Shown piece after piece: positions 20,067 to 44,576 of a stretch of DNA of 64,000 nucleotides. The DNA lies in NCBI GenBank assembly GCA_017443345.1, contig JAFSNR010000171.1:1-64000 (forward strand), written 5' to 3'. Source of the stretch: Prevotella sp. GTDB lineage: Bacteria; Bacteroidota; Bacteroidia; Bacteroidales; Bacteroidaceae. Made by a program: the position numbers and the translations under genes. The notes beneath the pieces were generated by a model. It had not been told where the DNA came from. It searched no databases and saw nothing but the letters and a program-made list of their open reading frames with translations. The first letter of the stretch is position 1, and every line of letters starts with the position of its first letter.

Positions 20067-23000
20067 CTATGGTGTAGTAGTTGTTGTACCATCTTTTCCG
20101 ATAACCACATTGGTATTACCACTCACATTGGCCTTATTACCACCGCCATAGACATTACCAGTGATATTGGCACCAATAACGTTAGCTTCATTCTCCTTGA
20201 TTTCGGTTGAAGCATTATCATGAACAGAAGTCAGCGTAACCTTTGGTACAGTGCCTATATTCACATGCGTATTGCCTACGACATTAGCCTCGTTACCACC
20301 ACCGAAAACGTCACCGATCTCTCCAAGAGATGTAGCCACAGCATCATATTTCGTCTTATTCGCATCACTATACGCCTTTCCATAAATCTGATTAATATTC
20401 ACTGTGGGGTTGCCATAGACAGTAGCATGCTCTCCAAGGCCACCTCCAAATACCTTGCCGATGCTGGTACATGAGATCACATTTACTTCGGGATCAGCAT
20501 AAATCTTAGTGCCTTCAGTCTTACATGTACCATCAGCATTATATCCATATACCGAATAGGCTGCATCATTACCACATCCATACAGCTCCCCAATAACGAT
20601 TGGGCGACAACCCGTCTCCTCGATATTCACCTTGATATGTCCCTCGATAACTCCACCAATATTATTACCTCCGAACACCTTTCCGAAAGTTCCGCTGGTG
20701 ATGGTCAGCTCCACGTTACCATGAACGTCGGCATTATCAGCGCCACCAATATACTCATCGACTGGAGCCTCGGGTTGACAACCCAGGACGGTAATAATGT
20801 CTCCCCAGACCTCTGCATTTTTACCAGAGCCTACAATCTTGCGCAAATCCAATGCGCAATCACAGGTCGGATCTTCTGCATTAGTGTTAAAAAGGATGTC
20901 CCCCTCAATGGTACCTTTCTCATTACTACCACCATAGGCTTCATGGATATAGCCACCAGTCAAAAGGGTCGTAGCATTACCAAGGACATCGGCTCCCGCA
21001 TTAGTGATCCACTCGTTGCCTTTTTTATACTTGTCCTTACCGTTACCACCTCCGAACACATGATCTATCTCCCAGGCTCCCTTAACAAGCACATCTGTTT
21101 CCGATACCTTCGCGGCATTACCGCCACCATACACATCCTGCACACTGACGTCACAAGTATGTATAATAACTGTCGCTTTCTTACCTGCAGTCGCATAGTC
21201 AGCCAAGTTTCCACCTCCATAGACAGCAGCAACTTGATAAGTATGATCTGTAGCATTTCTGTTTGCTTGCTTTGTATTATCAGGATCTTCCTCTGTTCTA
21301 TCTACATTTCCTTTTACCGTCTTATACACATTCACCGTCACATTGCCCTTTGGCGAACCGTTCAGATTATTGGTACCAAACACACGACCACTCTTGATGA
21401 CCTGCACAGGGGCTTCAGCCGTGCCAGAATTATCAAAGCTGATATTGAAAGCTGTTGCAGTCCCAGGTACAGCAGGATTATCTCCATTTGCTGGTGTACC
21501 CGTAGTACCCAAATTCACAGTAATATCTCCATATACCGTCGCCTCAATATCCGAAGCACCACCATTAAAACCAGTCTTCTGTCCTAATCCGCCACCGTAA
21601 GCATCGCCTCCGATAGATCCTCCAGTTAAGTTGACCGTCGTGGTATTGGTTGTTTTTCCTGTAGTTGCATTGTACATGCCTTCTGCCCAGCCGCCAGCAC
21701 CATCGTTTAATGTCGCATTCCAGTTGGCAGTATTCGAATCAGCCAAGGCGCCACCGCCATAGACATCTTCACCGATAGTACTATTGCCTTCGATGTTGAC
21801 AATCACAGTCCCTTGTACATTACCAGCCTCACCGCCACCGAATACCGAGCGATTGATTTGGGCATTTCCCGAGATGGTCGTAGTTGTATTCTTCGCCAAA
21901 CCGAATCGGGGATCAGCAGACGTACCCTTACTTCCACCAAATACATCACCGATAGTAAAGTTGGAGTTCCTTAAAACACCATTATCAACTGCACCTATAC
22001 TACCCCCAGAGATATTAACTGTTATATGGCCGTGAGTTTCTGTCTCAGTATCTGCCTGCATCTTGCCATATCTTTCATCATTAGCATTAGCAAAATAAGT
22101 ACCAACCGATGCCAAACGTCCACCACCAAAGACTGATCCAAGCATAATTCCATTGCTGATATTGACCTCGACATTACCACCCACAACACCAGCTGTTAAT
22201 GCCGTTTCACTGAATCCACGTCCACCGCCGAATATATTTCCATCAACGCCGGATGTTCCTCTGGTACCAATAATGACGTTTGAATAATTCTTGACTTCTG
22301 TTGTACCATCTGCCTTTGTGATAGTGACATCTCCGCCGATATTTGTTTTAGCATTACCTATGACGTGGCCATCCTCACCACCACCAAACGTAGAACCATA
22401 GATGCGAGCATCGCCAGAGATATTCACCTCAGTACTTCCTACATTGGTCCAGGTGTTGAAGTTGATGCGCTGGTCGCCCTTACCTGCTCCGAAGACATAA
22501 CATGTAACAGGGTGATTTCTCATCTGCTCATGTGTACGGGGTACGCCGACAGTACCGCCCGTCATATTGATAGTACACTTACCTCCTGACCACACTGTGC
22601 GCACGCCATCTTCATCCTCAACGTATGTACCCACATCTGTCTGCTCATTACCGCCATAGACGCTGGTCAGGATATGGCCACCAGTGATATTCACCACAGT
22701 ATTGCCACCTACAGAACCTGCCTCACGATGCCATAATCCGTCGCCATAACCCTGCTCTGCCATAGCATTCGTAAAATTAGGATTACGCTTATACGGATAG
22801 TAGCCACTACCACCGCCAAACACATTACCATAGAAGGTATGGCCGTCAGTTGCGAAATCTGGCGTACCATCCCCATCAGAGTCTTTATAAATATCGTAAG
22901 GAAGATGCTCTCCTTCAAATGGCCAACTGTCGCATTCCAAATCTCCAGTGACAGTATAGTTATTTCCCCATACGTCATTTTGATAACGCTCCGTTGTGTT

Positions 23001-26000
23001 TTTACCACAGCCAATCTGTCCACCATTAATCGTCACTTGCGTATCGTGCTGCACATGGCCATTCATACTACCACCATAGACGGAGCCCTTGACGAAGGCA
23101 TTTCCATCGATGGTCACGTATGTCTGAGTTGCTAAGGCCTGGGTTTCAATGAATGAAAGGTATTTGGCTTCTTTGCCTTCATAACATTCCCAAACATCGC
23201 CTGGAGCCATACGTCCTGGGTGCTTCTTCCCAGCATGACTTGGGTCTGTGAGTTGACAATCGAAGTCGTCTTCATTCTCGTATGGAAGGATTCCTTTACC
23301 CGCACCAAAGACGTGTCCTGCATCATCAGGCCCACCTGGTGAAGTCATCTTCATATTATCTGGACCAATTTCAGCATTGCCTTGGATGGTTACGTTACAA
23401 TATCCAGTTCCATTATTTGCCAACGACCATGGCATTCCTACTTCCAACTCAGGATGCGCTGCAACAAAATCCTCATCATTCATATCCGCTTCTGTAGTAA
23501 TGTTATATTTACCCACAGATGCAATTTCACCACCACCATAGACACTGAGACCAACTTTAGCATCGCCCTGAATGGTGACAAAAGTATTACCACGAACCAA
23601 AGCCGCATAACCATACTGCTCTACGCCCTTACCAGCACCGAACACATCCTTCTTGATAACAGGAGCGCTAGTTCCTGTTGGTAGACCAACCTTCACCACC
23701 GTATTCCATTCCACACGGCCAACCTCGCCACCACCATAGACGGTACCATTTACCGTGCCGTTTCCGATGATGACCTTCGTACCCTTATTAACACTTTCTG
23801 CTGTGATATTTACAGACCCATTATTATCACCATTAACACCCACCATGGCTTTATCACATTTGAATGAGTCCGTGAGTCCTTTACCGCCGCCGAACACATC
23901 ACCAGTGATGACTGGAGTACCGTCTACAGGCGAATACTTGGTTGGATCATTAGTATCCTGAACAGCGCAGATATTCACATTTGTATTGCCTTTGACTATA
24001 CTCTCATTACCGCCTCCATAAACATTACCTCTAACTTCTGTGGTACCACTAATCGTCAGGGTAATGTTACCTTCTACGGCACCTAGGCCTTCAAGCGACT
24101 CTGTAGTGAGTACATACCATTTATTGCTCCCCACAGGATATTCAAAAGTGGCCTTCAAATTCGTTGTAGTGCTTGCATCGGATGGGATGACCACCCCTTC
24201 GGGAAAGAATTCTGTAGCAGATTTGCGGTAGCACCACGTATAATAGCGGTCTGTACCATCAGCATTCTTTACATAATCGAATACACCATTTGCATTCTGC
24301 ATCACACCTGCCTTGTCAATATAGGGATATTTCGTTTTGCTCTTATCATGAATACGGAAAGGCTCAATCTTCCCAGAATAGCCTCCACCAAAGACATTAC
24401 CTTTTACAGTACAATCTTTAAGATTAGAGGTCACAGAGCCATTAACATTTCCGAGGTTTCCACCTCCATAGAAATTTTCTTCAATAATGCAATCATCAAG
24501 AAAATTTGTAATATCACCCGTAGAAGTTTTACCAAACTGTGCCCAATTGAGATAAGAACGAATCGTTGGTTTTGTTGCAATACCATTTGACTCCACAAAA
24601 CACTCAAATTCAAACAATGCATGGTAACCTTTATTATCGCCACTTCCTTGATATGCATTACCTACACCACTGATTGTATTGAGTGGATTAAATATATTAT
24701 ATCCATACTTATTCCAATAAGCCTCTGTTGAAGGATTTGTAAATTCGACATTACCATCTTGTCGTTTTTCTCTGAAATAACTAGTACCACCATTGCCGCC
24801 ACCATAGTATTGGGTGAATATTGTGCCAGTAGCATGAGTTGTTACAGTCTTACCATCATTCATAACTCCCACTTTTGGCCCACCACAAAACTTTGTCACT
24901 TTACTGTGATCGATGGTGACATCTATGCTTCCTTGAACCGGTTTAGAACCATTAATACCACCGCCGTAGAATTCATCAATAATGGAATGGTCTACCTTAA
25001 AAGTGACATCCCCCATAACTTTTTCGTAACCAGCACCGGCAATCATGCCGAAGCGGCCACCATTGGTGTAACAATGCGGGTTTCCTTGAACAGCCAATGT
25101 GGGATTAACACCCGTATTGTAAATACCAGAAAGATAAAACTCTGGATATTCACCCCCAATGCAGTTAACAGCACAAAGACGCACCACTGTACTCTTAGCA
25201 TCGTCATTGGCATGCGCTCCAGGTGTGAATCGTAACATACGGAAATGACCGCCCATCAAGAAATACTGTATATTGTTGAATGGTGGATAACGTACAATAA
25301 CCTGCTCAAAGTGACCACCGTTAAGAATTATCGGAGCTGGTACTTTTGTTAATGTATTTTTATTTTTGTTTCCATCATACTCAAACTGGGTTGTATGCAT
25401 AAATGAAGTCTCAGTAATTTCAAAATGCCCCTGTGGAACAAAAATGCCAATGGTGTTCTGATTTACATCGTGGCGAACTGCTAAACCTAATTCTGGAACT
25501 GGCAAGAAATCAAAACGAATAGGCTGGATTCCATCTCGGTTATAATCTTTTCGGTATTGAAACTCGAAACAATAGTCGGGTTCATTATCTAAGTCTTGGT
25601 CAATGCTCATAATTGTATAAGGATGCCATTTGCTGTCAATGTTTGTTCCAATAGCGCCATTCTCATTTCTCAATTGATAATTGCTAAGTAAGACGATGGC
25701 CTGGTCATAAACGGAGAGACTGAGTTTCTCATCTGCACCTGATCCTGTTTTGGTGGCCGCATCTAAGTTTGTAACTGCTGTGTGCCATTCATCGTAAACG
25801 GTTTGTTCCTGGAAAGTGGTGGATAATGTGCCTGCAGGTTCAAAAGGGTTACCTACTGTACGGTTACCGCTCGATGCTGTAATGTTTACGCGGTCGAGGT
25901 TGTGGCCTTTGTTATGGAGATATACAGCTTTGCCCCAATAAGCCTCAATGGTGATAGAAGTAACACCCTCAGGCACATAAAAGAACCCTCCCTGAGCAAA

Positions 26001-29000
26001 GACACGAGGATTGGTGGGTGAATATTTATCTTTAGTAGTACAATAGCGATCAGCATAATTATAACCACTTTCCCAATTTGGGGTAAAAGTATGATCAAAA
26101 GCAACGCCATTAGCATCAGTACCTGTCGAATTGGTAACATTAGCCACACCTCCAGGAATATCAGTTATCTTCCATCCTGTGACAACATAACCTTTGTAGT
26201 TTCCACCATAACGTTTGTCCCATTTAGTATTATAATCCTCAGCTGTAGTGGCAGGTATCTGTACTGTTGGATCACCAAACAATTCATTATAATATGGCAG
26301 TTGAACTTTATAGTAACCGTAATCGTGATTCAAAATATCCATATCGGTAATGGTCAGAGAAATAGTTTTAGAAACGACTCCACTAGCAGCATGCCCACCT
26401 GGATTGACAGTGACGCTTAACTTTTGTGTAAAACTCTTACCATGATAAGGTTCTGCAGTAGAACGAGCCTGCCAGTCACCTTTACCATTATTGGCTTCAG
26501 GATCCCATGTCCGGTCTGGATCTGGATTTATAATAGAAGGATATTTACCCCACTTCTTCAGTATAGGATAAGGAGCAATGCTGGGGTCGAGCACCCACTT
26601 GGCTATCAATGCAGTGTCTGCAGCAGTCTGATTACTTACAGCTTTGTCCGTGACCCAGTAAGTACAAAGCTGACGGTTACTATTAAGAATACTACGATAA
26701 TACTCAAAACGTGTCAAATACTCTTCATCAGCAGGCCATGAACGCTTATAATATTTAATATTACCATAACTATCATCAAACGTAGCATTCCCCCGGAAGT
26801 AATTATAGGGATTAACACCATTAGTGGCATCGTTCTTAATCATAAAGTCATCACTGGGTCCTCCATAAACTGGATATTTTTTATTTCCCCCAGTAATATC
26901 TCCATAAAACATGCAATTAACCACCATCCCGACATCTCCAACATTACCTTGATTGATAGCATCTGTTGCGATATTACCGACGACACCTGCCACAATAGCA
27001 CCACCTGTAATAACAGCATAACTATAACAATTGATGACGCGTGAAGAACCTACGAGTTTGCCAACTATACCACCAACATTGTTTGTGCCACTAATCTGAC
27101 TCGTGCCTGTGACACTGGTAATATTACCATCGTTATCTTTGGTTTCTGTAATCTCACCCAAAACACCACAATTATAAATGCGAGAAGCACCAGCGGCATT
27201 ACAGCAAATGGCACCAGCATCGCCTTCAGTATTACCACTATTGATCTTGATATTTTCAAGTATCACGTTCTTAATGGTAGCATTCTTAGCATATGCAACC
27301 AAAGGCACAGATAGTCCGCTCAATGGATTGAGCTGGCCGTCAATAGTCCCTGTGAAGGCGTGTTCGTCGTCTGTACCTAACGAAGTAAAAGTAGATGTAA
27401 ACGTAAAGTCTGGAGCCAGGATATAATAACCTCCTAAATCAGTAAACTCTGTAGAAGAGTGAATCACTTTTGGCCTTAAAGAAAGTGTTATGGACTGATT
27501 CGCACTGCCGGAAGGTTCAAGTGCGGTAAAGGAGGTCACAACTTTCTGATGGTCAAAGCGCGGCATCAACTGCAAATTGCCATTGCCATCGTCCACCACC
27601 ATAAAGGTGGCGTTGGTAATGTTCAGCGTGGTCTGGTCGTAACCTGTCGCCGTCTGGCGAGAGGTGGTCGTCATATTCTGCAATGACACGCTACTTGACG
27701 TACCAGTCCAGGCACCACCTGATAATGCAGATCCTGTTGTATTAGCCGTGAAATAGCGCTGGGTATAAGCCTTGTTTTGAATCTGCAGATTGTATGGATC
27801 AAAGCCATTACGTCCTTCGTCGTAGTTTTCTGCATCAGTAGCAGCTTTGGTCTTAGCCTCAGACTGGGCACCTGTTTCCCCTGCATATTTATAACCCATC
27901 TCACGGTCGATATTGAAGTTGGGTTTCAGATACCACTGTATATCGTCTTCTGCATCGTCTACTGAGGCAGGTGCCTCAGTAGTAGTAAGTATTGTTGCCG
28001 TTCCATCAGACTTGGCATAGATATCCCCTTGTTTCAACAGGAATGGAGATGCCGTTGTTTCTTCTTCCAAAGCAGCGCCCGTATAGGTTTTGGCGTAATC
28101 GGACTTCACGTCGTAAGTAACGTAGAAGTCGGTTTTGTACTTTTTGTCCTGATTAGCATAACCATCCAAATTGCCGTCAGGAGTTACAGCAAGAGAACTG
28201 GATGAGAATGGTTCACTTTTATAACAATACCACTCTACTATATTGTTGTTATTAGGATTTTCGCCCTTCATATACACATCGATGGTAGGTTCAGGATTGC
28301 TAATTGTGTATTTATGATAACCTGTGGATTTAACAGCTTTGGGATACCAATGGTACTCCTCCACCATCGGACTATTAAACTTTCTCAGACCATCTGTATT
28401 TACTACTGTAAAGTCAGCATCAGTGTACATTGGCGTACGCATGATTTCCCATCCATGCTGGTCAAGGAGAATGACTTGCGGAGCTAGGTCTACCGCCTCT
28501 AATGTGAATTTGCCATCACCCATGTCAATCGTCTGGAACCAATGGTCGTCCTCTTTTATAGATTTTTCTTTAGCGTTACCGCCCCATTCTGCCGCAAATG
28601 CCCATGCTTTATATTGATGCCATTCCATTCCTGTTAGCATAGCGTTGTTAGCAGCAGGATTGTCACCGACAAGGTTATGCACCGTGGGGTTGTTCTTCCA
28701 GTACTGCTCAAACTTATTGACTATTTGACGGTCGTCTCCTATAACGCCAAATGTCTTCAATGTCATGTTATCCAACGAAGTACCAAGAAGCATGTATTCT
28801 GTTGGTTCTCCATTAACTATTGAGGCGGTCATCTTGGGTTCTTTTTCATTGGTGTAATAACCACTATTTTCGTATGCAACACTCGTTACGACTCCAACTT
28901 CGTCGTTAGGTTTATATGTGCGCAAATATGATTTGCCCTCATACTCCTCTGTATTACTGATTTTAATCTTCTGATTTTGTTCAGACTTAATAATGACATG

Positions 29001-31436: not shown

Positions 31437-31471
31437 CAATCTTACTTTGTCTCTATTTGTTTCTACCTATA

Positions 31472-31581
31472 CCCTAGGCATACTCTAAACACGCTCTAAG
31501 CATACTCTTGGCAAGCTCTAGGCATAGTCATTGGGTATGCTTACACTATGCCTACACCTTGCGAAAACCTTGCCTAACATG
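31472..31581. repeat. Ten degenerate 11-bp tandem units between the BspA-like gene and giant gene B
   Basis: Consecutive 11-mers from 31472, for example CCCTAGGCATA, CTCTAAGCATA (31494) and CTCTAGGCATA (31516). The first five share CTCTANGCATA; the last five drift to TGCCTACACCT-like units. It fills most of the 164-bp gap. Confidence 0.8.
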
Positions 31582-31600
31582 AGCGAGCTCTGCTTTATTC

Positions 31601-32962
31601 TCACTTAATCACGACCTTTTTACCATTCTTGATATAGAGTCCCTTCTTAGTGGGAGCGGTGGGCAACTGACGGCCATCGAGGGTGTACCAGGCAGATTGG
31701 CCCTCTACCTTATTATTATATATAGGAGCGATGGCCGTAGTGCCATCGCCATGGAGCGAATAGCTACCACGGGTGCGCATCTCCGATGTCGCCTGGAGGT
31801 AGACATTGCCTGTTGGGATGACACCTGCCTGGGAGTAGTAGAATACGTCGTTGTAGAGGATATAAGCATCACCGAGACTTACCTCATGACCACCTTTTCC
31901 TTCGTCTTGTGCCACTTTCAGCAGACTGGTAGTCCTCGAAGGCTCTTCGTCCGTGGGTGCGGTATAGATAGTAACATCTGAAGGAATCTCCTTCGCGTTG
32001 TACACCAGAACGGCCATACCTGATGTGATGACCTTAACTTCAGTCAGACTCAAATTGGTCTCATTGATACCCGTGATGGCATAAGCCTTCAGTACTGATG
32101 GTACCACGATGGTTTCACTGGCTGCAAAAGTGTCGTACTCGTTGCTGGCGCTGAACTTGATGTTATCCATCCTAACGGCATTCTCACTGCCCATCGTAAA
32201 GTCCTTCCAGCCATCGGTGATATTATACTCCGTCAACAAGTTGGCTGGCACATTAATCTTGAGACCTTCATTGGCAGGGATAGCGCCCTCGCCCATCTTC
32301 AACACCTGATTGGCATTATCAATCCTGATGCTCGTCAGACTGGTACAGCCAGCAAAGATATTCGCACCGATACTGGTAACACCCTTCTCGATCACCACAC
32401 TGGTCACCTGTGCTCTGACAGATGCCCATGGATCTGTCTCGCCACCAAAGTCAACAGTAGATCCCTCGCCCGTGATCATCATAGTGCCGTTGTCCGCATC
32501 ATACGACCAGGTGACATTAGAACCCTCTGCACTGATATCATTAGTGGGTTCCTGAGGCCCTGGTCCCGGCTCTGGCTGCACCTCCACAACATGGAAGTTC
32601 GCCTCCTTCACCCAAGCACCAAGTCCAGCTTTTACCGTAAAGGTATAGTCGCGCTTCAGGGTCAGGTCCTCGGGATCATCACCCGAGAGTTCAATATCGC
32701 CGACCACCTCAGGCGCACGCGTACCACCTGGGGCAACAGTCGAAACAACCTTGATATCCTTCTTGGCGATGTAATAACCCTCAGCAGGGGCCACTGTCAG
32801 CGTCACGAGCACACTTCCGTCCTCAGAGGCTTCTGCCTGATTGGCAGAAATCGAACCACCCGTATAGGATTCATTCAGGTCGATCTTGACCTGCGCCGTC
32901 GCTGCCATACTGACGATTGTCAGCACTGCCAGCATCCAGATTCTGTTCATTACCTTTTTCAT
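31601..32962 (-). CDS. Secreted BspA-like leucine-rich repeat protein with T9SS-like C-terminal tail
   Basis: 453 residues. Signal peptide (MLAVLTIVSMAATAQ). Residues about 25-125 form the beta domain shared with giant protein B (APAEGYYIAKKDIKVV ... GLGAWVKEANF). After a Pro/Gly linker (EPGPGPQEP) comes a BspA-type LRR segment (VTSVVIEKGVTSIGANIFAGCTSLTSIRI). The C-terminus WYTLDGRQ...KGLYIKNGKKVVIK is the short tail common on Prevotella surface proteins, resembling T9SS type A sorting signals. It lies between the two giant genes, so it may be their partner on the surface. Confidence 0.85.
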   Translation of the reverse strand: MKKVMNRIWMLAVLTIVSMAATAQVKIDLNESYTGGSISANQAEASEDGSVLVTLTVAPAEGYYIAKKDIKVVSTVAPGGTRAPEVVGDIELSGDDPEDLTLKRDYTFTVKAGLGAWVKEANFHVVEVQPEPGPGPQEPTNDISAEGSNVTWSYDADNGTMMITGEGSTVDFGGETDPWASVRAQVTSVVIEKGVTSIGANIFAGCTSLTSIRIDNANQVLKMGEGAIPANEGLKINVPANLLTEYNITDGWKDFTMGSENAVRMDNIKFSASNEYDTFAASETIVVPSVLKAYAITGINETNLSLTEVKVITSGMAVLVYNAKEIPSDVTIYTAPTDEEPSRTTSLLKVAQDEGKGGHEVSLGDAYILYNDVFYYSQAGVIPTGNVYLQATSEMRTRGSYSLHGDGTTAIAPIYNNKVEGQSAWYTLDGRQLPTAPTKKGLYIKNGKKVVIK

Positions 32963-32991
32963 AATGCTTCTATTTTAAATTTTTACTTTTT

Positions 32992-33026
32992 CACTTTTCA
33001 CTATTCACTTTTCACTTCTCACTTCT
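32992..33026 (-). repeat. Five CACTTTT-type heptads after giant gene A
   Basis: Units CACTTTT, CACTATT, CACTTTT, CACTTCT, CACTTCT: the reverse complement of the AAGTGAA family at 464-498. Degenerate copies continue into the giant gene's stop codon at 33030-33032. Confidence 0.8.
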
Positions 33027-33029
33027 CTA

Positions 33030-36000
33030 TCACTTCACTATCACTTTCTTCACATACTTGCCGTTATCGGCATAGACGATATAGACGCCTGCGCTGTAGA
33101 CCTGCGTCTCCACAAACTCACTCGACTGGATCGAGTAAGCTGCCAGCGTAACACCAGCAGGTGTAACGATGCGTACATCGGTTGTATAGCGCAACTGCGA
33201 CTCCACGCAGATCTTCTTCTTTCCAGCCGTCACAATCAGGTCGTCATCACCGCCTAACTGATTCTGAGCCTTGGGCACATTCATCTGAGCCATATCACCG
33301 CTAAAGATAATGCTGTTGACATTCCCCTCGCCACGGGTTTCCTGTGCTCCTGACTTCTTCATGAAGTAAGGACGGAAAGGCAATGCCGTCTTAGAGGCTG
33401 TCAGTTTCTTATACTTATTTCCTCCATCGCTGGAATTAAGCAGGAAGTCGCCAGAGGCCAGCTCCTTATTCTGGTAATTCGGATAGAAGATATAATTATC
33501 TTTCTCTACACTCGCCATTTCATCATCACTGACGCCGATCGGTGCCTTCTCAGCCGAGGCGAAGGTGATCGTCTGCGTACCAAGTTTTGCAATGGCCGCA
33601 TAGGTATTCTTGGCTTCGAAATTACCACTTAAGTCAAACTCATAGTAGCTGACTCCAGGGAATCCTATCAGATACGGAGAACCTGCCTTCAGATATGGAT
33701 ACTTATCATAGGTACGCAGACCATTATAATATGACTTGTAGATGTCGCTATTAGCATCTTTACTCTCTGATTGACTATAATAGTAATCATAGAGGAAGGT
33801 GTTGGCATCACTCTTAGAGCCACTTTCTGCAGTAGCAGGATATGTAAACTTGGCCGCCAACTCGTCAGTCGTCGAGGTTGTAGCGTCAATGCCATCGTAT
33901 ACTCTCAGCCAGTACTCATGGCCCTCGGTACTTCCATCGAAGAAGTGGGTAATCTCACCCTTATCCTGTGTCGTTACCAACTCTGCTGTAAACGGCAGAC
34001 TGATATCCTCCCAGCCCTTTGACTTGCCTGTGCTAGTCTCAATCGTCACGAAGTTCTGCGGTTCACGCTGATACCACATGACATTGTTCTCACCCATCTT
34101 GTAGCCAATCGGGCAGTTGAAGTCCTGCTTGTCCACGAGCAGGTGGTCACCAGCAGAAGTCTTGTTGCTGAGGACCAAGTGTCCATAGATAGTTGGAGTG
34201 GGAGCCACCTTGACGCGACGATATACATCATTGATATAGTACTGGCTATAAACCGGTTCCTTGAAGTAATCTGCCAAGACATTATAAGTCTTACCACTAG
34301 CTGGTGCATATACCAGCAGGTTTGGTGTCTCGTCACGGTTCACGATACTAATAAGTCCATCATCGTCGAGCAATGGCTGATAGAACAAGCTACCGTTGAG
34401 TCCTAATTGATATGTCGCATCATTGTGGCCGGCAAAGTCGATGGCCGTCATACCCGGATAGGCCGGATGAGTGTTCAAATCAGCAGCGTTCTCAGGCTTG
34501 GAATGAGATACCAGATTGACACTTGGATTAAAGTGTGCCACACTCATATTCTTATTACCATAGTAGGCGGGTGCACGATAGACGCGGTTGCTCTGGTCGG
34601 TACTCAGCAGACGACCACTGCTCTTCACGATAGGCGACGGCACTTCCTCATGTGGCCTGGCCTCATTCCAATTGTACGTCAGCATCTGTCCGAAGTAGAT
34701 ATAATCATCTGGCCAGATGGGATAATAGCTGGTCTCATTGGTCGTCGTATTGGTATGGGCGCGTTCCTCTGCCGATTCTGGAATATTACCGCCTGCATAG
34801 CGGAAGTCGCCATCTATGAAGCGATCCTCGACATACTTCTCGCCATTATAGCCTGATGAACAATAACTAAAGTTGCTGCCATAATGTCCAGTTTGGGGCT
34901 CCGACAAGGTATTATTATTCGCATTGATGGTGTAATACTGATAGTCTGTGCCCGTTGCGCCAGCATGATCATTGTAACGCTTATAGAGATAGAAGCCATT
35001 GAGATTATAGGCTACGGTTCCATTATAGAAGTCCTTTTCCGACATCGGACGTGCGATGCCATGTGTCTCATCAGAAGTAACCTTATAGGCATTCGTGTCG
35101 AGATAATAACAGTTGACGATCTGCTTGTTACCTGTCGTCGACGGATTTCCAAAAACTGCACGAACACCATCTGGGAATCCTGTCGTCTGCTCACTCTTCA
35201 CCCAACAGTTCTCCACATAACCGTCACCTGTATCAGCCACACCAGCAGAAGTGAATGAACCCATGACGCCAAGATTATAGACATTACCACAGAGACTTCC
35301 AAACAGAGAATTGTTAATACCGCTGATGTAATGTCCATCACCATGGAAGTTACCACTGAAGCACTTGGTCTCATTGCCAATAGGAGTCCAGTTGGTATAG
35401 GCTTTAGGACTCATATTACTCTTCAGGATAAACTCCAGATTATCACAGCCACTGACATGACTGTCGAGCGGAGTATGCCCACCAGAAGCAGAGAGACTCA
35501 GGTCAAAGAAATCCTTCAGCAAGTCGAGTTCGTTCTTGCTGGCATCGCTCTCACATGTACGATTATCGATATAAATCTTTGGGTCACGAATTGCCCCTGG
35601 ATGATCCACATACATGTGGTGCTCCTTGTCCTTCATCACAGCATCGAGGTCATGATAGTTGGCCACCTTGATAGCTACGGGGTTCGAATAGGTCTTGCCC
35701 AGATAATTCTTTGAGTAGAAAGCAACCCATACCTTCTCGTTCTGATACCAATAGACTGGCGTATTACCGTTATCGAAAGGCAATCCGTTACGATGATTCT
35801 CGGCATCGTCGAGGTTGGTGTATATTTCCCATCCGTTACCCATTGGCTCATAGAGTCCGGGATCTACCGTAGGTGCCTTGAGTCCGACAGTATAACCAGG
35901 CAGCACCGTTGCAGGAGGATTCAGCACACCGAGTCTGGGCACACCACTCTCCAGCTGCAGATGGATATTCACCACGTGCAGCTCGTTGGCCTGTTTGATA

Positions 36001-39000
36001 CCGCCACCGTCTTCATCCTCATAATAGGTATACTGATAGACCACTGTAATAATCTTCTCCTTGGTCACATCGTTGATGTCACTCTCCCTGCTCACATAAA
36101 GGGTTGTCGTTCCCGTAGGTTCCTTTCCTTGAATGATAAAGTATTTCTGGTCGTTAGTCAGAGCACCATATTCCGACTTACTGAGAGTCTGGCCCTTTGA
36201 AATTGAACTGCCAGAAGCATTCGTATAGCCCTCATAACAGTAATACTGTTCACCAGTTGAGGTGAATGTGACCCCTTCTACATTTGGATTAGTGTATAAA
36301 TCCGCATCTTCAATCACCTGTCCCTTTCCATAAGGAATACCTTCATAATCGAAATTCTCTTTGGCAAAGTAGACTTTGTCATTTTCGTTAGCAATAACCA
36401 CACGAGTATAGTGACGCTGATCGTTCTTGATCTTGGTTTCAAAGATGGTATTGGAGATACGTGGATTAGTACTGGAGACTGACCCTCCCTCATAAGTCAA
36501 TGTCGTGGTACCACTGTGATCCGCTCCATATGCCTCAGGCTGGAAGACCGCATCGTATTCTACATCCACCTGGTCGCTATAAGGCGATCGATAGGCTTGT
36601 GCTACGGTTTGCGTATTGTTAGCATCATAGAAGTCCAAATAGTTCGGATCCGACAAGACATCAAAGGCATCGTGGTTGTACGTGAAGTTACTACGGTCTG
36701 TCTGGGAGAGTGAACACCATGCACTGATGGCACTATAGTTGGTGCCACTTAAATACTGTTTACCTCCATAATAACCTGGACTCGTGATGATATAGGCAGG
36801 TGTCATCGCTGCAGTGATTTCTAAAGCTTTTGATGAATAGCTGGCACTAGTATTGTTTATCTGACCTTGTGTCATTAAATCATTCAACAACAAATAGTTC
36901 TGATCGTCGAGTTTGACAGTGTTGATACATACAAATGCTTCGCCGAAGGCATCTTTGGTTGTTGCATCTAAAGCATCATATTCTGTAAAAGAGATGGCCG
37001 TACCCTTGTTGACAGTCTTTACTGTACCATTGTAAGTATAGGTCACATTCTGTGTGGCTACATATGCCCTCTCTACTTCAGCCTCAGGATCATTAGGATC
37101 GGTGGTCGTCTTACTGGTATGATGATTCTTTGTATCCTCAGTGATAATCTCACCTTTATTATATTGACGATGTCCGTATACACCATTCGACGCCGTCGTG
37201 AAGGTCGGACCTTCCCGATATCCATCTTGCTCTGTCTGTATTCTATTGGTAGTCACTGTACCATTTTCATTAACAGTATAGGTCGTCGCATCTGTTTCAG
37301 GGCTATACCAGTTGTCCCAGATCTTGGGGCTGTCCATGTCGAACGTCAGTACATAACCCGTATTATGTCCGATATTGTTCGAAGAACGGAAAATGTAATC
37401 GACACCAGCCACATTACCATTACGGTCATGGATATCCTGGCCATTGGCATCCTTAAACGTATGTGAACCTACTCGGAATGTCGTAAAGGCAGTCTCGTCC
37501 ATCACGTAAGTGCCTGCCTCGTATTCGGTCCCGTCAATTGTACATGTCATGCAATTGACATAAGTCTCTTTACGGAATAGTCTCTGCTCATTTGGCTTGA
37601 GATTATGCCAGTCCCACCAGGTGATGACGTCATTCAACTCATAGCTGTCGCTCTCACCGTTGACAAACACCTTATCATATTCCTTCTCGCCTTCTTTGGT
37701 GCCAATCTTGACCACTTGGTCATTATCATTCAATGTATCATAAGCATACAGACTTGGCTTGACGTTCATCAGTTGTAACTTTCCGTGTGAGGCAGCTGTG
37801 ATAGTCAACGGGATCTTCACCTCTTTCGCATATGCATTGGCACTACCTGTATAGGCCGACACATTCACATCGTAGATATATACATCACCCTTCACATACC
37901 AGTAGTGGGCATCAGAATAAGGAGTCTGCCCGATAGTATATGCATTATTCGTGGGGTAGCAGTCGTCTATGATTCGCTTCTGAGGATGGATAAAGTTTCC
38001 TGAGGTTTCATACGACATCGTTTCATAGACGTTGGCCTCATCTCCGCTGATAACTTCAGACGTTGATTCTGTTGACCAGTCTCCATCATCAGCTATAGAA
38101 TAACGATAGCGCTTATGAGTACGTGCATCATCGCGCAATTCTATATTATTTACTTTCTTTTCCCTATTATATTCAGACAAGAGGTCGTTATCCTTGTTTG
38201 GATAATACCTTGGCACACGGTGCTCGTTCTTGGCATACACGAAGCCACCACCCACCTGATCTCTCTTCACATTGATCAAGTCGAGCTCAACCACACCGGT
38301 GATATAGCCATAGTCCTTTTTTTCTGCAGTACTGTTTTCTGTAGTCAGTTCCAGGAACACGCCTGAAGCCAAAGCCACCTGATTGCGACTAGAGCCCTTG
38401 TTTCGGTCACTGCTTGTTGGGTTAGATGCCTTGTGGCTGTAATACGTCTTGCTATTATCCTGTACACCATTTCCATCCACATATGTATCACCAAACTTCA
38501 CGTCACTAGTCAAGTTACCCAGATGGTTTACGACACTATAGATACCGAAGTAGTTACCATGAACAGCATCGTCCCCGGAATCTGTATTAATCACCGAATG
38601 TTGTTGGTTCAGTGATAACTCACCCACACGGTTAATGGTATAGACAGTGGCATCGCCCACGTCGGCCACACGATCCTTGGCACCCTGAAGTACCAGTCGC
38701 GAGCCATAGACACCACAGAGGTCCGCACGCTGGATGGTATTCAGCAGTCGGCCTGCATAGATAGAGCAGAATCCATAAGGTGTAAACGCTGCCTTAATCT
38801 GGGCTGTAGTAGGATTCGTAATTGATGAGGAATTATCAATATACTTCTGATAAACATCCTCATCAATAGGCTGACTTGAGGTTGTATAGGAAGTTCCGTT
38901 GATGATAATATCAGATACGCATACATATTGTAGCTTAAAGTAAGCACGCTCACGGTTGGAAAGATTACGGTAGTCATCAAGTTCAATTCTCGAGTCGAGT

Positions 39001-42000
39001 CTATAGAAGTCCGTGCCGTAGTTAGTGATGTTGAGCTCTCGGTAGCCATCAACCATCGAGAGGTTTCCACCTCCATAGAGACCACCTGTGTGCTCTGTTC
39101 CCACGGTAATGAAGTCACGGTGATAAACATCATAGAGTGTCGCAGTGGTATTTCCATAAACCGTCGTAGCATTAGCGTAGGTCTGGTCACTGTTCGATGA
39201 CACGTTACCTCCAGCGAACACTGCATTATGAATCATCACTCCACGATCATTCTCACCTTCCGTGGTGATAAAGTTCTGCCATTCTACCGGCCAGTCCTCT
39301 GCACTTTTTTCTTTCTTTGGCAAGGTGTTCAGATAATCAGTGGGCACATAGTCGAATGGTTTGTAAGTTATCCCTTCGTATGTTACATTACTACCACCCT
39401 TTTTTATCTGAAGTCTGGGCGCAACCACGACCTTACAATCTTCGGTCAAATGACCATTTTTATAATAATAGGTATGTCCAGGCGAACCCGTAGATGTTTT
39501 GCGGCTTGCATCATCAAAATAACCCGTACTGTAAACATAGCCGACATTTCCACCACCGAAGACATTGCCATAACCATCGGCAATACCAGCCACAGTTCCG
39601 ATCTCACCACCATAGATGTAGACAGCCGTCTGTCCGAATACATATCCGTCAGTATAGCGTCTTTCCTGATCTGCCTTATGACCGAATCCCAGAAGATTGA
39701 ATCCTTTGCCACCGCCATAGACATCACGAAGCACATGACCGTTATACATCTCGACATTTGTCGATCCATAATGATAGACTTGGTTAAGCGTGCGCTTAGC
39801 ACCTTCCTCCTTAGTAGAGCCACGGCCTACAGTGGCAATCTCACCACCACCATAGACACTATTCCTGATTAAGCCACCAAATATAGCAACATTTGAATTA
39901 TCCACATTACTATTATCATCGTATCCGCCGCCATAGACATTACCGCAGTCCTCCAGGCGGTAATTGGGTTGCCCCTTCGGATGAGATTCGTCAGACCATG
40001 TCTCGTCGTGAATCTTCTCCTGATAGTAGTCAGAACCATCCTTTACATAAGTAAGGTCTGTGTTGGTGGTTGGCTCTGCATCGAAATGCTCATAGCCGAT
40101 ATAGCCGTTGTTAAGTGTCACGTGTGTCGTACCATAAACGGCTCCACCCTCACCACCTCCGAAAGCATTTCGCTGGATGGCGGGAACGCCCTTCAGGAAA
40201 CCGTATCCAGTAGGAAGGGAAGCCTGATCCTTGCGGATGCCGATGACGACATGGGTCTCACCCGAGATATCGCCTGTGTCTGAAGCAGAGAGAGCTCCTA
40301 CATGATGACCTACACTGCCTTCCCAGCCTCCACCATAGACATTACGTACACTACCGCCCTCAATGTAGGCATTGGCACTAGCAATAAAGCTGCCAGCTCC
40401 ATGAAGATCTTCTACAGAGCCACTGGTTCCTGCTGCATAAACGTCTTTTCCAACTGTACCACCCAGCAGGGCGATATAGGTCGTTCCTGCAACGACAGCA
40501 TCAGCGCCCAGTCCTCCACCGTATGCGTAGTTCGACACTTCTGCCCCTTGATTGATGATGACATTGGCATTATACTGATAGGTTTTGGTTGAACGGTCGT
40601 CCATCTCTGCCTCTCTTACCAACGGATTATTCAGATTCGTGGCATCATTGTTGACATAGGAGGTACTAGATTCACTGAAGGTAAACGGTGAGGGATCATA
40701 GCCTTCGCCCAGCGTCCAGGCATACAACCAATCTGCTGAGGTAAACTCATTTCCAACTACAGTTTTATCCTCGGAATCTGCTGGCCACTCCGATGGCTTA
40801 TAGGCATTCATGAACTTCTGTACACTCTCGGCATTATGCACCTTTCCTGCCTGTCCACCGCCATAAACCTCATAGACCTTAGCACCGCTTTCCAGATTAA
40901 CCTCAGTATACTCTGACCACGAATCACCACCAAAACCTGCACCATAAACCGTTCCCAAATATAGCGCACCTGTTGTAGGATCCGATTTACCTGTATAAAC
41001 AGGTGCAGAGATATTCACTTTGCCATAGAGCGTACGGCGCTTATTGTTATTACCACCATAGATAGCTCCCTCTACAATGGAGGTTGCACTCCGATAGTTG
41101 ACATTGGCCTCATAGACATCGCATGGATGATAAGTGTCTGTACCGTATGCACCACCGAAAATATTATTGACCTTGATCGTAGAACCCTCAGGTACGTTTA
41201 CCAACGTGCGACGGGTTACACCTTCTTTATAACTGCCACCATAGACATTCTTGATATCGCCACGGATAAGGTCGATAATGGCTGAGCCTTTATCAGGTTG
41301 TCCCTGAATAATTTTTGTTTCATCAGCAGGATCCTTATGATCCACAAGAACTGATGGAGTTATTCCCATACCGACACCACCACACTCTCCACCACCGAAG
41401 ACGACAGTGCTCTGGAAAGCTTGCATGCTTTGAGGAATATCAATGAGAATGTAACTGCGGTTCTGCATCTTGTTCTCCTCTTTCTCACCGAAGAATCCCT
41501 GTCCCGCGCCGTAAATTTGGCCTACCGCATTATACTCGCTGTTACTACTTGAAGGACGGAAATTGATAAAGGCATTGTCCATCCAAGGTTTGGAGTAGCC
41601 GGTGCGAGCCGTTCCTTTGTTTGAATCAGTTGTACCTGTGCCGCCTGAGGCATAGAAGAACTGTCCATATAGTGGATTCGTATAGTCGTAGACGCCATAG
41701 CATCCACCGAAAATCTTCTCAACCCTACCTTGCTGGTATTCGATATAAGCCGAAGCATTGAGCACAGCAGACTTATCATCATTTGATGCGCTGTAGCCAT
41801 GAACCTTGGCCAACGTACCATTACCATTCTCAGTATTATCATCGTCGTCACGTACACGGCTCCAGAACTTACCTTCACCAAGGATTTTTCCACCCAAATC
41901 ATTACCACCATATACATAGTCGCGGACGTATGGGAAGCCATTCACACCGATGTAAGTCTCTGTATGACCATAGATATCTGCATTACAACTGCCAGCAAAC

Positions 42001-44576
42001 GTATTGAAGATTCGACCGTTTCCTAAATTGATGTGGGTATCACCAGCAATAGGACCCTCGAAGCCTCCACCATAGATGAACTCTATCTGAGCCATCTCGT
42101 CACTGATGTCCTTAGATTTAGGAACACCTGGATGATTGCTCGAGCCCGACAGATTGACGTAGGTACTATAAGCAGGATTATAGGTGTAGTTCCCATCATC
42201 CCCCTTCTTACCGATAGCACCCTCTTCACTGCCTCCAAAGATCTGGAAGGTGTAGCCTGCATTCAGATTAACAGTGGCACTGCCCCAGATTTCTGTCTCC
42301 TGACCCTTACCGCCACCAAAGACGTTCAGAGCTTTACCGAGCACATCCATACCCTGCTGACCCAGGATGACACCTGAATGTCTTTTAGTTATCGTATAGG
42401 TATTACCGTAGAGTTTATCTTCTCCAGTCTCGTCATCAGTATCCACTTCATCGAACAAGATATCGCGGTCTACGATCGTCGCATTGATGTTGATAATGAC
42501 ATTGCCGTTCACGATACCACTGGAATAACAACCGCCATAGATATTACCGCCTTTGAAACGTCGATTCAGATCATCAGATGAAGCAGAACTGACTGGAGCA
42601 TTAGCAGCTATCACATTTTTATCGTTACCGATGAATGTATTCCATTCCAAGCCTTTAGTTCTGTCGCTTTCATCAATCCAACGCTTGGGCTGGATCTTCA
42701 GACCACTGAGGTTGAGTCGCAGCTTGTTACCGATGGTCTTACCAGCCTCAGGTGTTTCATATGAGCCTTTAACACCACCCACATAAGCTGCATTCAGACC
42801 TTCGCGGAATGGCACATTGGCATTGTTACAACCTGCCACCAGTTTATCGTATATGATGACTTCGTGCTCGAAATCGACTGAAACCAAACCATCCTTGATG
42901 ATACTTCCCACATTACCACCACAATAGAATGAACCGAACTGGGTACTATATGGCTTGTAAATATCTGGAGAATTAACACCGTCATCAAATACCACATTTG
43001 GATCGATCTTCATAGCACAACCATCCATGTACGTATCGAAGACATTACCTTCTCCTACCAGTTGCAAACTACTGAAATTAGCATCCGCATACTTTCCAAG
43101 TACACTCTGCTCTACCATGTTTTCACCATTGTTGCCGAGGAAAACCTTGTCAATGATGACATAAGAGCCAATCTTCAGCTCCGCTGTTGCTCTGGCGATA
43201 TCTGCAGACTTCTTCTCCAGCGTAGCACTGTTACCTCCTACATAGAGAGCCCCCTCGACAATGGTAGGTTTCGCTTCTGTTCCACTGACTCGGATTGACA
43301 CACGCTCTGCATTGGGGCGATGGGCATTGAGCGCCGCAACAGAACTGGAACCAGGATTATAATAGAAGTCTCCCCACTGCGGATCGTCCTTAAGTGAAGC
43401 TTGGTCTGTATAGGCATACGATCCATTACCACCGCCATAGACATTACCATGGATGGTCGTGAATATACCTACGGTATTGCCACCATAGACTGTACCTGAT
43501 ATATCGTTGCCACCATAGACATTGTTGACGTATCCACCTAGAACACGTACACGTGCAGCATAACCGGCAGGAGCCTGACCTGGGTTATCTTCATCAGGTA
43601 ATTTAATCTCCTCTGTGGGAACAGGGACAGAGGTTGAGTTAGCATAAGAATACTCCGGACGCACATCAGACTTACGACAACCGCCATAGACATTGTCAAT
43701 CCATAATACTTCGGCATCTGTCGTCTCGGCATTTGGTTTATCTGCATCAATTTGCAGGAGGAGACCTTCCGGACTGGTCATACGGCCCTCATTACCTCCG
43801 CTGTAAAGGTCACGGATTTTGCCTTTCTTAAGGAACCACCGCGGGCGGATAGCCATATCGGCAAAGTTGTTGCCGCCAAAGACACGGCCAAACTGGAACG
43901 AGCCTTCAACATTAGTCTGCGTCGTATTTAGGTTCATCTCCTGAATACGGGTATCATTAAGCAATTCCGTATTCCCCTCCTTGATACTATTCACCACGGT
44001 GCTAGTATTATCGATACAAATAGTGGTATTACTAGTCACCGTGGCATTGTTACCACCGCCAAAAAGTTGGCCGAAAGTACCACCATTGATCTGCAGATAG
44101 GTCTTCCCGATGACTGGTGACGACATACCGTAATAGGGATTATCCGTCTCGCCATCACTTAATGTAGCAGAAGTATAGTCATAATTGCCATCGCCACCGC
44201 CAAAGAGTTTGCCGATGAAGATTTTATTGGCAGAGAGGTTCGTACGAATAAAAGAATCGAAGGTGTTATCAACATGAGTCTTGGTATCGGTGTTTACCTC
44301 CGGTGTAAATGGCAGAACCTTCGCTGTTGCGTCGGTTCCGATAGAACCAGAGACGTCATTACCTCCATAAACAGCATTAATGACGACATCGAAATGGTCT
44401 GCACTGATATCCACAAAGGTAGAGCCACCGACATCTGCCTGACAGGCACCGCCAAACACCTTTCCATGGATATTAATCTGTGCGCGACTCGTCGCCACTG
44501 TAAACACAAATAGGAATAGGAGCAGCATTCGCAGGCCGTTCCTGAAGTATGTCTGATATGGTAGATTCGTCCTCAT
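33030..44576 (-). CDS. Giant secreted repeat protein A (3848 aa), N-terminal VYGGG beta-solenoid and C-terminal sorting tail
   Basis: Signal peptide about residues 1-33 (MLLLFLFVFTVATSRAQ). About 34-1840: some 38 copies of the V-[YF]-G-G-[GNC] rung motif starting immediately after the signal (GKVFGGACQADVGG, AVYGGNDVSG). About 1880-2800: a second repeated element of 40-50 residues with a Gly-x-x-Tyr core and a following Glu-Tyr-x-Ala-Leu or similar. About 2970-3110: GLUG-like segment (FSGNFHGDGHYISGINNSLFG). Final 80 residues: a T9SS type A-like domain ending GVYIVYADNGKYVKKVIVK. Predicted to cross the outer membrane by T9SS and stay on the surface. It is 5 nt after the last fimbrillin-like gene, so it belongs to the fimbrial operon. 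Confidence 0.87.
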   Translation of the reverse strand: MRTNLPYQTYFRNGLRMLLLFLFVFTVATSRAQINIHGKVFGGACQADVGGSTFVDISADHFDVVINAVYGGNDVSGSIGTDATAKVLPFTPEVNTDTKTHVDNTFDSFIRTNLSANKIFIGKLFGGGDGNYDYTSATLSDGETDNPYYGMSSPVIGKTYLQINGGTFGQLFGGGNNATVTSNTTICIDNTSTVVNSIKEGNTELLNDTRIQEMNLNTTQTNVEGSFQFGRVFGGNNFADMAIRPRWFLKKGKIRDLYSGGNEGRMTSPEGLLLQIDADKPNAETTDAEVLWIDNVYGGCRKSDVRPEYSYANSTSVPVPTEEIKLPDEDNPGQAPAGYAARVRVLGGYVNNVYGGNDISGTVYGGNTVGIFTTIHGNVYGGGNGSYAYTDQASLKDDPQWGDFYYNPGSSSVAALNAHRPNAERVSIRVSGTEAKPTIVEGALYVGGNSATLEKKSADIARATAELKIGSYVIIDKVFLGNNGENMVEQSVLGKYADANFSSLQLVGEGNVFDTYMDGCAMKIDPNVVFDDGVNSPDIYKPYSTQFGSFYCGGNVGSIIKDGLVSVDFEHEVIIYDKLVAGCNNANVPFREGLNAAYVGGVKGSYETPEAGKTIGNKLRLNLSGLKIQPKRWIDESDRTKGLEWNTFIGNDKNVIAANAPVSSASSDDLNRRFKGGNIYGGCYSSGIVNGNVIININATIVDRDILFDEVDTDDETGEDKLYGNTYTITKRHSGVILGQQGMDVLGKALNVFGGGKGQETEIWGSATVNLNAGYTFQIFGGSEEGAIGKKGDDGNYTYNPAYSTYVNLSGSSNHPGVPKSKDISDEMAQIEFIYGGGFEGPIAGDTHINLGNGRIFNTFAGSCNADIYGHTETYIGVNGFPYVRDYVYGGNDLGGKILGEGKFWSRVRDDDDNTENGNGTLAKVHGYSASNDDKSAVLNASAYIEYQQGRVEKIFGGCYGVYDYTNPLYGQFFYASGGTGTTDSNKGTARTGYSKPWMDNAFINFRPSSSNSEYNAVGQIYGAGQGFFGEKEENKMQNRSYILIDIPQSMQAFQSTVVFGGGECGGVGMGITPSVLVDHKDPADETKIIQGQPDKGSAIIDLIRGDIKNVYGGSYKEGVTRRTLVNVPEGSTIKVNNIFGGAYGTDTYHPCDVYEANVNYRSATSIVEGAIYGGNNNKRRTLYGKVNISAPVYTGKSDPTTGALYLGTVYGAGFGGDSWSEYTEVNLESGAKVYEVYGGGQAGKVHNAESVQKFMNAYKPSEWPADSEDKTVVGNEFTSADWLYAWTLGEGYDPSPFTFSESSTSYVNNDATNLNNPLVREAEMDDRSTKTYQYNANVIINQGAEVSNYAYGGGLGADAVVAGTTYIALLGGTVGKDVYAAGTSGSVEDLHGAGSFIASANAYIEGGSVRNVYGGGWEGSVGHHVGALSASDTGDISGETHVVIGIRKDQASLPTGYGFLKGVPAIQRNAFGGGEGGAVYGTTHVTLNNGYIGYEHFDAEPTTNTDLTYVKDGSDYYQEKIHDETWSDESHPKGQPNYRLEDCGNVYGGGYDDNSNVDNSNVAIFGGLIRNSVYGGGEIATVGRGSTKEEGAKRTLNQVYHYGSTNVEMYNGHVLRDVYGGGKGFNLLGFGHKADQERRYTDGYVFGQTAVYIYGGEIGTVAGIADGYGNVFGGGNVGYVYSTGYFDDASRKTSTGSPGHTYYYKNGHLTEDCKVVVAPRLQIKKGGSNVTYEGITYKPFDYVPTDYLNTLPKKEKSAEDWPVEWQNFITTEGENDRGVMIHNAVFAGGNVSSNSDQTYANATTVYGNTTATLYDVYHRDFITVGTEHTGGLYGGGNLSMVDGYRELNITNYGTDFYRLDSRIELDDYRNLSNRERAYFKLQYVCVSDIIINGTSYTTSSQPIDEDVYQKYIDNSSSITNPTTAQIKAAFTPYGFCSIYAGRLLNTIQRADLCGVYGSRLVLQGAKDRVADVGDATVYTINRVGELSLNQQHSVINTDSGDDAVHGNYFGIYSVVNHLGNLTSDVKFGDTYVDGNGVQDNSKTYYSHKASNPTSSDRNKGSSRNQVALASGVFLELTTENSTAEKKDYGYITGVVELDLINVKRDQVGGGFVYAKNEHRVPRYYPNKDNDLLSEYNREKKVNNIELRDDARTHKRYRYSIADDGDWSTESTSEVISGDEANVYETMSYETSGNFIHPQKRIIDDCYPTNNAYTIGQTPYSDAHYWYVKGDVYIYDVNVSAYTGSANAYAKEVKIPLTITAASHGKLQLMNVKPSLYAYDTLNDNDQVVKIGTKEGEKEYDKVFVNGESDSYELNDVITWWDWHNLKPNEQRLFRKETYVNCMTCTIDGTEYEAGTYVMDETAFTTFRVGSHTFKDANGQDIHDRNGNVAGVDYIFRSSNNIGHNTGYVLTFDMDSPKIWDNWYSPETDATTYTVNENGTVTTNRIQTEQDGYREGPTFTTASNGVYGHRQYNKGEIITEDTKNHHTSKTTTDPNDPEAEVERAYVATQNVTYTYNGTVKTVNKGTAISFTEYDALDATTKDAFGEAFVCINTVKLDDQNYLLLNDLMTQGQINNTSASYSSKALEITAAMTPAYIITSPGYYGGKQYLSGTNYSAISAWCSLSQTDRSNFTYNHDAFDVLSDPNYLDFYDANNTQTVAQAYRSPYSDQVDVEYDAVFQPEAYGADHSGTTTLTYEGGSVSSTNPRISNTIFETKIKNDQRHYTRVVIANENDKVYFAKENFDYEGIPYGKGQVIEDADLYTNPNVEGVTFTSTGEQYYCYEGYTNASGSSISKGQTLSKSEYGALTNDQKYFIIQGKEPTGTTTLYVSRESDINDVTKEKIITVVYQYTYYEDEDGGGIKQANELHVVNIHLQLESGVPRLGVLNPPATVLPGYTVGLKAPTVDPGLYEPMGNGWEIYTNLDDAENHRNGLPFDNGNTPVYWYQNEKVWVAFYSKNYLGKTYSNPVAIKVANYHDLDAVMKDKEHHMYVDHPGAIRDPKIYIDNRTCESDASKNELDLLKDFFDLSLSASGGHTPLDSHVSGCDNLEFILKSNMSPKAYTNWTPIGNETKCFSGNFHGDGHYISGINNSLFGSLCGNVYNLGVMGSFTSAGVADTGDGYVENCWVKSEQTTGFPDGVRAVFGNPSTTGNKQIVNCYYLDTNAYKVTSDETHGIARPMSEKDFYNGTVAYNLNGFYLYKRYNDHAGATGTDYQYYTINANNNTLSEPQTGHYGSNFSYCSSGYNGEKYVEDRFIDGDFRYAGGNIPESAEERAHTNTTTNETSYYPIWPDDYIYFGQMLTYNWNEARPHEEVPSPIVKSSGRLLSTDQSNRVYRAPAYYGNKNMSVAHFNPSVNLVSHSKPENAADLNTHPAYPGMTAIDFAGHNDATYQLGLNGSLFYQPLLDDDGLISIVNRDETPNLLVYAPASGKTYNVLADYFKEPVYSQYYINDVYRRVKVAPTPTIYGHLVLSNKTSAGDHLLVDKQDFNCPIGYKMGENNVMWYQREPQNFVTIETSTGKSKGWEDISLPFTAELVTTQDKGEITHFFDGSTEGHEYWLRVYDGIDATTSTTDELAAKFTYPATAESGSKSDANTFLYDYYYSQSESKDANSDIYKSYYNGLRTYDKYPYLKAGSPYLIGFPGVSYYEFDLSGNFEAKNTYAAIAKLGTQTITFASAEKAPIGVSDDEMASVEKDNYIFYPNYQNKELASGDFLLNSSDGGNKYKKLTASKTALPFRPYFMKKSGAQETRGEGNVNSIIFSGDMAQMNVPKAQNQLGGDDDLIVTAGKKKICVESQLRYTTDVRIVTPAGVTLAAYSIQSSEFVETQVYSAGVYIVYADNGKYVKKVIVK

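Follow-up and report, generated by a model that had tools for sequence, protein, structure and literature searches.

A conserved pair of giant VYGGG-repeat genes in type V fimbrial operons of Prevotella-type bacteria, and the surface fibre they may encode

Two giant genes and the adjoining fimbrial operon

The window analysed here, a stretch of 64,000 nucleotides from Prevotella sp. (contig JAFSNR010000171.1 of assembly GCA_017443345.1), contains two genes, A and B, for giant proteins that carry many copies of a VYGGG-type motif. The genes form a well supported conserved pair, and their products may fit together as parts of a single modular fibre on the cell surface. Both reading frames are open at the sizes given by a first-pass annotation of the window: giant A (33030..44576, minus strand) has 3848 amino acids from an ATG start, and giant B (20067..31439, minus strand) has 3790 amino acids from a TTG codon or 3789 from the ATG one codon later. 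The motif positions also bear out the opposite layouts described in that annotation, with the solenoid of A right after the signal peptide and that of B preceded by modules and continuing to the end of the chain.

In giant A, the signal peptide and first coil (residues 1-45, 44442..44576) lead into a solenoid (residues ~33-1850, 39027..44480; delimited by motifs, with an AlphaFold2 model for 33-905 only) whose motifs span residues 40-1833 of 3848. About 1,900 residues of modules follow, which match no Pfam family and are kept in relatives (residues 1851-3720, 33417..39026), and the chain ends in a C-terminal sorting domain resembling type A of the type IX secretion system (T9SS; residues 3797-3848, 33033..33188). 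Giant B begins with modules (residues 1-2115, 25095..31439), of which residues 1311-2115 are the part matched most often in other genomes, and ends in a solenoid (residues 2157-3790, 20070..24971; delimited by motifs and by a profile match to A) with motifs at residues 2157-3763 of 3790 and isolated matches at 394 and 1524. Its terminal partial coil (residues 3763-3782, 20094..20153), consisting of VYGGG plus 15 residues ending in IGK, is kept as the end of the B family. All these parts are read from the minus strand. Truncation or a frameshift at the end of B was considered and rejected: the stop codon looks genuine because it is followed on the same strand by a terminator-like hairpin of 15 pairs with a T-run (20008..20041) and because relatives end alike.

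The fimbrial genes upstream of A are closely spaced and all lie on the same strand as A. The nearest, 5 bases away, encodes a fimbrillin-like lipoprotein without a Pfam family (44582..45649), homologs of which stand directly upstream of A in most relatives. Beyond it are a FimA-family fimbrillin (45656..46861; PF06321, 27.1 bits versus a cut-off of 21.4, with 46.8 bits for its relative in locus L140), a lipoprotein without a Pfam family (46878..49061, listed with a GTG start), an Mfa2-like anchor lipoprotein assigned by homology (48718..50034), a further lipoprotein without a Pfam family (50099..51880) and a DUF3575 protein (51915..52517, PF12099). The Mfa2-like gene of the window has no Pfam match itself; among three homologs scanned, PF08842 matched that of L111 (33.8 bits, cut-off 21.2), fell just under the cut-off in L117 (20.5 bits) and was absent from L140. 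Judging from these families, the genes upstream of A are a type V (FimA/Mfa) fimbrial operon, in agreement with the annotation. An 18-nucleotide repeat at the end of the Mfa2-like gene (48794-49039) encodes a PDPGPG-type array; since it holds a second frame open, the listed start of the 46878..49061 gene is probably too early.

Repeat motif, predicted fold and sorting signals

The motif is far more frequent than in shuffled sequences under every pattern tried. V[YF]GGG occurs 9 times in A and 15 times in B (shuffle mean 0.04), [VIL][YF]GGx 28 and 21 times (shuffle mean 0.86 and 0.87, maximum 6 and 5 in 500 shuffles), and a looser pattern 34 and 28 times (shuffle mean 2.4, maximum 9 and 8). Thus the many rungs counted in the annotation are real, although slightly fewer than its figures of 38 and 33. 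The repeat is not named by any Pfam or NCBIfam model, and the annotation likewise knew of no named family for it; no sequence relatives of the solenoid were found in the PDB, four nucleoprotein matches at E 0.52 being dismissed. Among the papers listed by literature searches, none had a title describing the A/B pair, and those matched by the motif were unrelated by title. Self-BLAST gave no rows that would indicate internal duplications, even for the longest protein analysed. A beta-solenoid rises by ~0.48 nm per coil; with the loose motif counts, and one coil per motif taken as a minimum, the A and B solenoids of the window would each measure at least ~13 nm and that of the longest protein ~95 nm.

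AlphaFold2 predicts residues 33-905 of A, half of its solenoid, as all-beta with high confidence (predicted local distance difference test score, pLDDT, 92; predicted template modelling score, pTM, 0.93), and comparison of the model with the PDB returned solenoids as the top structural matches, including the self-associating autotransporters Ag43 and TibA. A regular coiled, solenoid-like all-beta fold is therefore a confident prediction for this part of A, and ruled out the idea that the VYGGG repeats are glycine-rich disorder. The first strand begins at residue 2 of the model (strand E2-9), and neither the sequence nor the model has a separate N-terminal cap domain ahead of it. For B, the solenoid fold that had been expected of both giants is suggested by profile similarity: the C-terminal profile of B aligns with the N-terminal profile of A over 90 columns (hhalign probability 97.9, E 4.5e-13).

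The sorting signals of the two giants differ as the annotation had stated. The C-terminus of A scores 22.6 bits against TIGR04183, just under the cut-off of 23, but among 72 C-termini from relatives of A and A itself, 64 match this model at E 0.01 or below. B has no NCBIfam match, and a comparison of 24 C-termini of the B family with the T9SS families gave no match at E 0.1 or below. A lipobox-like site is present in 281 of 351 fimbrial-type proteins, 1 of 107 A proteins and 3 of 103 B-type proteins. T9SS machinery was recognised in the genomes with A that were tested (PorV over the cut-off in 15/15, SprA in 13/15); the genome of the window itself has a PorV match and no SprA match, and PorV is common in the family anyway (over the cut-off in 208 of 251 genomes). 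The sorting domain and these genes suggest that A acts as an anchor by way of the T9SS.

Conservation of the pair, chain ends and flanking genes

Three collections were compared: the best 80 of 346 loci found with an A query, which consequently show how often B follows A and not the reverse; an order sample of 295 genomes, presumably of Bacteroidales; and a family sample of 251 genomes. The A genes of eight of the 80 loci also occur in the genome samples. The 80 loci are assigned to Prevotella, Prevotellaceae, Bacteroidaceae, Bacteroidales and, once, Muribaculaceae, and many come from rumen, reticulum or abomasum, or have the prefix RUG, which we take to denote rumen genomes. Full-length relatives of A number 34, from 33 further genomes, at 41-57% identity. 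Fimbrial homologs lie upstream of A in 75 of the 77 loci with more than 3 kb upstream (exceptions L146 and L155), and a B-like gene follows A in 62 of the 64 with at least 3 kb downstream (exceptions L165 and L175), a count that was repeated under a stricter definition of B.

In the order sample, strong A matches occur in 5 of 295 genomes and strong B ends in the same 5; weak matches add one genome for B (G449) and seven for A. Of the four besides the genome of the window, three carry A and B on the same strand of a single contig. In the fourth, G456 (contig C49; loci L211 and L212), they are on opposite strands of one contig, and the ~10 kb that separate them contain lipoprotein genes of fimbrial type; there the pair has outlasted a rearrangement. 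In the family sample, counted by hand with 200 bits or more for a strong A and over 70 bits for a strong B end, each occurs in 40 of 251 genomes and both in 36, with weak matches in a further 15 genomes for A and 7 for B. Thus 36 of the 40 genomes with a strong A also have a strong B end, and A and B are well supported as a conserved gene pair; each giant gene being common without the other, a finding that would have refuted the annotation, is not what these samples show.

The exceptions are of several kinds. A strong A with only a weak B was found in four genomes: the contig end cuts off A in G145 and B in G147, G190 has its B-type gene on a different contig, and in G241 the contig stops 4.2 kb past A, with no B seen. 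A strong B without A was found in G169, G195 and G244, where the contig begins inside B in all three, and in G197, where a B2-type gene (see below) lies 2.3 kb from the contig start and neither A nor B1 is recognised before it. Among the 36 genomes with both, G040 and G068 have their B-end match on another contig, and none within ~22 and ~17 kb after A, respectively. Because the bins are incomplete, these genomes neither prove nor disprove the pairing. A 3,459-residue protein of G449 (contig C1; locus L215), with nine motifs in mid-chain (1016-1454) and, by eye, a T9SS-like end, is a weak and distant relative with a different layout, and belongs to a genome of another family within the order.

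A is steady in size (median 3,936 residues; 21-30 motifs, near 27, in 69 closed copies), the shortest copy, of 2,397 residues, being probably interrupted. B varies from 496 to 7,949 residues and from 10 to 117 motifs in 50 closed copies; the statistics for B leave out open-ended proteins and those with fewer than nine motifs, and some of the entries may be fragments of frameshifted genes.

The B family ends in one conserved partial coil (consensus GADIRGNVYGGGNxAxVTGxTNVxIGK in 24 sequences), often with a short tail, and by a loose pattern 51 of 52 closed B-type proteins with at least nine motifs end in a coil, one of the 51 (in G235) being evidently interrupted. The sole exception is a closed 2,263-residue B-type protein of L171. 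B-type proteins most often continue for 20 residues beyond their last motif (20 of the 72 that end within 80 residues; 3 are shorter), and the first motif of a solenoid most often lies 7 residues after an AxA cleavage site (31 of 59), the next commonest distance being 10 residues (in 10). Since the commonest internal motif spacings are 25, 26 and 27 residues, one end plus one start makes one coil. When ends and starts were joined in silico and scored in a held-out test, the joints reached 42.3 bits, versus 44.2 for internal coils and 29.9 for random pieces of A, with an optimum at zero offset that is, however, broad. Alignment A2 was made without one interrupted protein among its 24 candidates, and alignment A4 without 5 of its 23 candidates, of which three were A proteins and two were of B type but lacked a coil at the end.

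In several genomes, B is encoded as two proteins: B1, with the modules and a few coils, and B2, with a signal peptide followed by solenoid. The B2 layout was recorded in 13 rows, two of which are one contig; those two and L125 look like gene pieces. The ends of B1 and the starts of B2 sit at about the same coil phase as the commonest B end and solenoid start, and the intact B proteins of G187, G139, G183 and G459 have one unbroken coil of 26-27 residues at the site of the split. The other 13 intact B proteins include one with 32 residues there (in G243) and one without a row, the rest being ambiguous or having insertions. The split at a fixed phase and the unbroken coil in intact proteins suggest that B has a functional joint at this phase; by analogy, A and B may also be joined there. 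The longest protein analysed, of 11,862 residues and 199 motifs, is a solenoid-only B2 protein of G104 (contig C104; loci L047, L202 and L216).

Between A and B of the window lies a gene for a protein of 453 amino acids, C (31601..32962, minus strand), whose N-terminal module (32591-32962) is common with that of B (31020-31418) at 40% identity over ~123 residues and has more matches in the same genome, e.g. on contigs C12 and C185. Protein C has a weak match, under the cut-off, to leucine-rich repeats of the BspA type. Its last 50 residues recur at many sites in the genome and by eye resemble a sorting domain; no NCBIfam model matches the protein, this end included. The fimbrial-giant block is flanked on one side by ilvD-ilvB-ilvN and an AraC-type regulator (52869-58827) and on the other by a gene of a PD-(D/E)XK transposase family (18892-19923), an acyl-ACP thioesterase and ilvC (the last two at 16842-18889), all named from Pfam matches. 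Because ilv genes stand on both sides, the block (16842-58827 with its flanks) may be an island inserted into a row of ilv genes. The transposase-family gene contains, near its 3' end, a 12-nucleotide tandem repeat encoding an EKGI array. A homolog of the thioesterase gene is also located downstream of B in L133.

A candidate two-part fibre, its alternatives and known systems

We propose, with the chances about evenly balanced, that A and B join as partners in a single modular fibre on the cell surface, encoded with a type V fimbrial operon in Prevotella-type bacteria, many of them from the rumen. A would cross the outer membrane by type IX secretion through its C-terminal domain, and its C-terminal half would stay attached to the cell surface or to the fimbria in much the same way as Mfa5. 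The N-terminal solenoid of A would project outward and end in an open, uncapped coil, onto which the solenoid end of B, as the complementary part of a coil, would dock coaxially, leaving the N-terminal modules of B as the distal, presumably adhesive end of the fibre. The number of coils in B would set the reach, varying between species with A nearly constant. In this scheme the pairing of A and B is well supported and their docking is plausible but unproven; the geometry of docking, the fold and export of B and the adhesive role are likewise inferred. A broader rule, offered more tentatively, is split-coil coupling: giant secreted solenoids encoded by neighbouring genes would be cut at one point of the coil (~20 + 7 residues) and joined non-covalently into a continuous beta-solenoid fibre of several segments (A, B or B1 + B2), with the sorting domain on A alone carrying or holding the chain and the length of the segments free to range from ~10 to ~200 motifs.

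Several results weigh against such a fibre: no fusion of A with B was seen in the analysis, a mirror-tree test for their coevolution was negative (r=0.05), in some loci one A start is matched by two B-type ends, so that the ends are unbalanced, and B has no sorting domain that would account for its export. The end-to-end stacking put forward in the annotation is favoured by the conserved pairing and the matching phase of the ends but not by fusion or co-variation, and the contact itself stays conjectural. The same lack of fusion and co-variation, and the surplus of B-type ends, speak for A and B as separate adhesins of one fimbrial system that make no contact, their coils simply starting behind a signal peptide or stopping behind a strand; any uncapped solenoid would, moreover, have a preferred phase. 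We nevertheless regard separate adhesins as the less likely reading, given how strongly the two genes co-occur and adjoin each other, and given that the split B genes are divided near this phase, where the coil of four intact B proteins is continuous, which suggests a real joint at least within B.

The open ends might instead pair B with B, either by joining the end of B1 to the start of B2 or by bringing two B ends together, even from different cells; this would make a homotypic fibre or a cell-cell contact, with A as a mere B-like anchor. The closeness of split B1 and B2 genes, the highly variable repeat number of B and the self-associating autotransporters Ag43 and TibA among the PDB matches are in keeping with this arrangement, but in loci with a single, unsplit B no free solenoid start was seen other than that of A, the first strand of which begins at model residue 2, so that we consider pairing of B with B improbable. 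Still less credible, to the point of being very improbable, is that B stays in the periplasm, e.g. as a ruler or scaffold for assembly of the fimbria or of A. Its plain signal peptide, the absence of T9SS families from 24/24 C-termini and the rarity of lipobox-like sites (3/103) would suit that location; proteins of 7,949 and 11,862 residues, however, would presumably be hard to fit into the periplasm, and a missing signal does not exclude export, since Mfa1-4 of Porphyromonas gingivalis reach the surface by a route other than the T9SS (PMC7835359).

If the proposal that A and B are segments of one fibre is correct, many ruminant-gut genomes of the Prevotella type encode an undescribed class of bacterial surface fibre, in which proteins of up to 11,862 residues are coupled by a rule readable from sequence. 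It would show that the principle of Mfa5, a fimbrial-operon protein exported by the T9SS, also applies to a giant in two parts, and would provide a natural case of end-to-end stacking between different solenoids, of use in protein design. It would also raise the question of how a giant protein without a sorting domain gets to the surface.

Among known systems, Ag43 and TibA, beta-helical surface passengers, resemble A in being among the best PDB matches of its model. Autotransporters carry their own barrel, whereas A has a T9SS-type domain in its place, and the autotransporter (type Va) barrel PF03797 was found in neither A nor B. The subunits of curli (CsgA) and of bactofilins are small and self-polymerise, unlike A and B, which have thousands of residues, come from different genes and include one partner with a sorting domain. 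The likeness lies in the stacking proposed for A and B: CsgA and bactofilins are described in PMC10192328 as beta-solenoid subunits stacked end to end, the solenoids of curli being open-ended and without caps, so that coils continue across subunits. SprB-type adhesins are, like A, very large surface adhesins exported by the T9SS; according to PMC10202324, SprB has a type B domain and serves gliding, in contrast to the type A-like domain of A and its place in a fimbrial operon. Mfa5 of the P. gingivalis Mfa1 fimbria, as presented in PMC7835359, has 1228 residues with a von Willebrand domain and is exported by the T9SS via its C-terminal domain, the other subunits being T9SS-independent. A is much larger (3848 residues), consists in good part of solenoid, has a giant solenoid partner gene and has no Pfam von Willebrand match (none in A at E 1 or below, and, for 4 relatives, none at E 0.1 or below in the half that contains the modules). 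Both are outsized ancillary proteins of FimA/Mfa-type operons with a T9SS C-terminal domain, and Mfa5 sets the precedent for such an operon to include a protein that depends on the T9SS.
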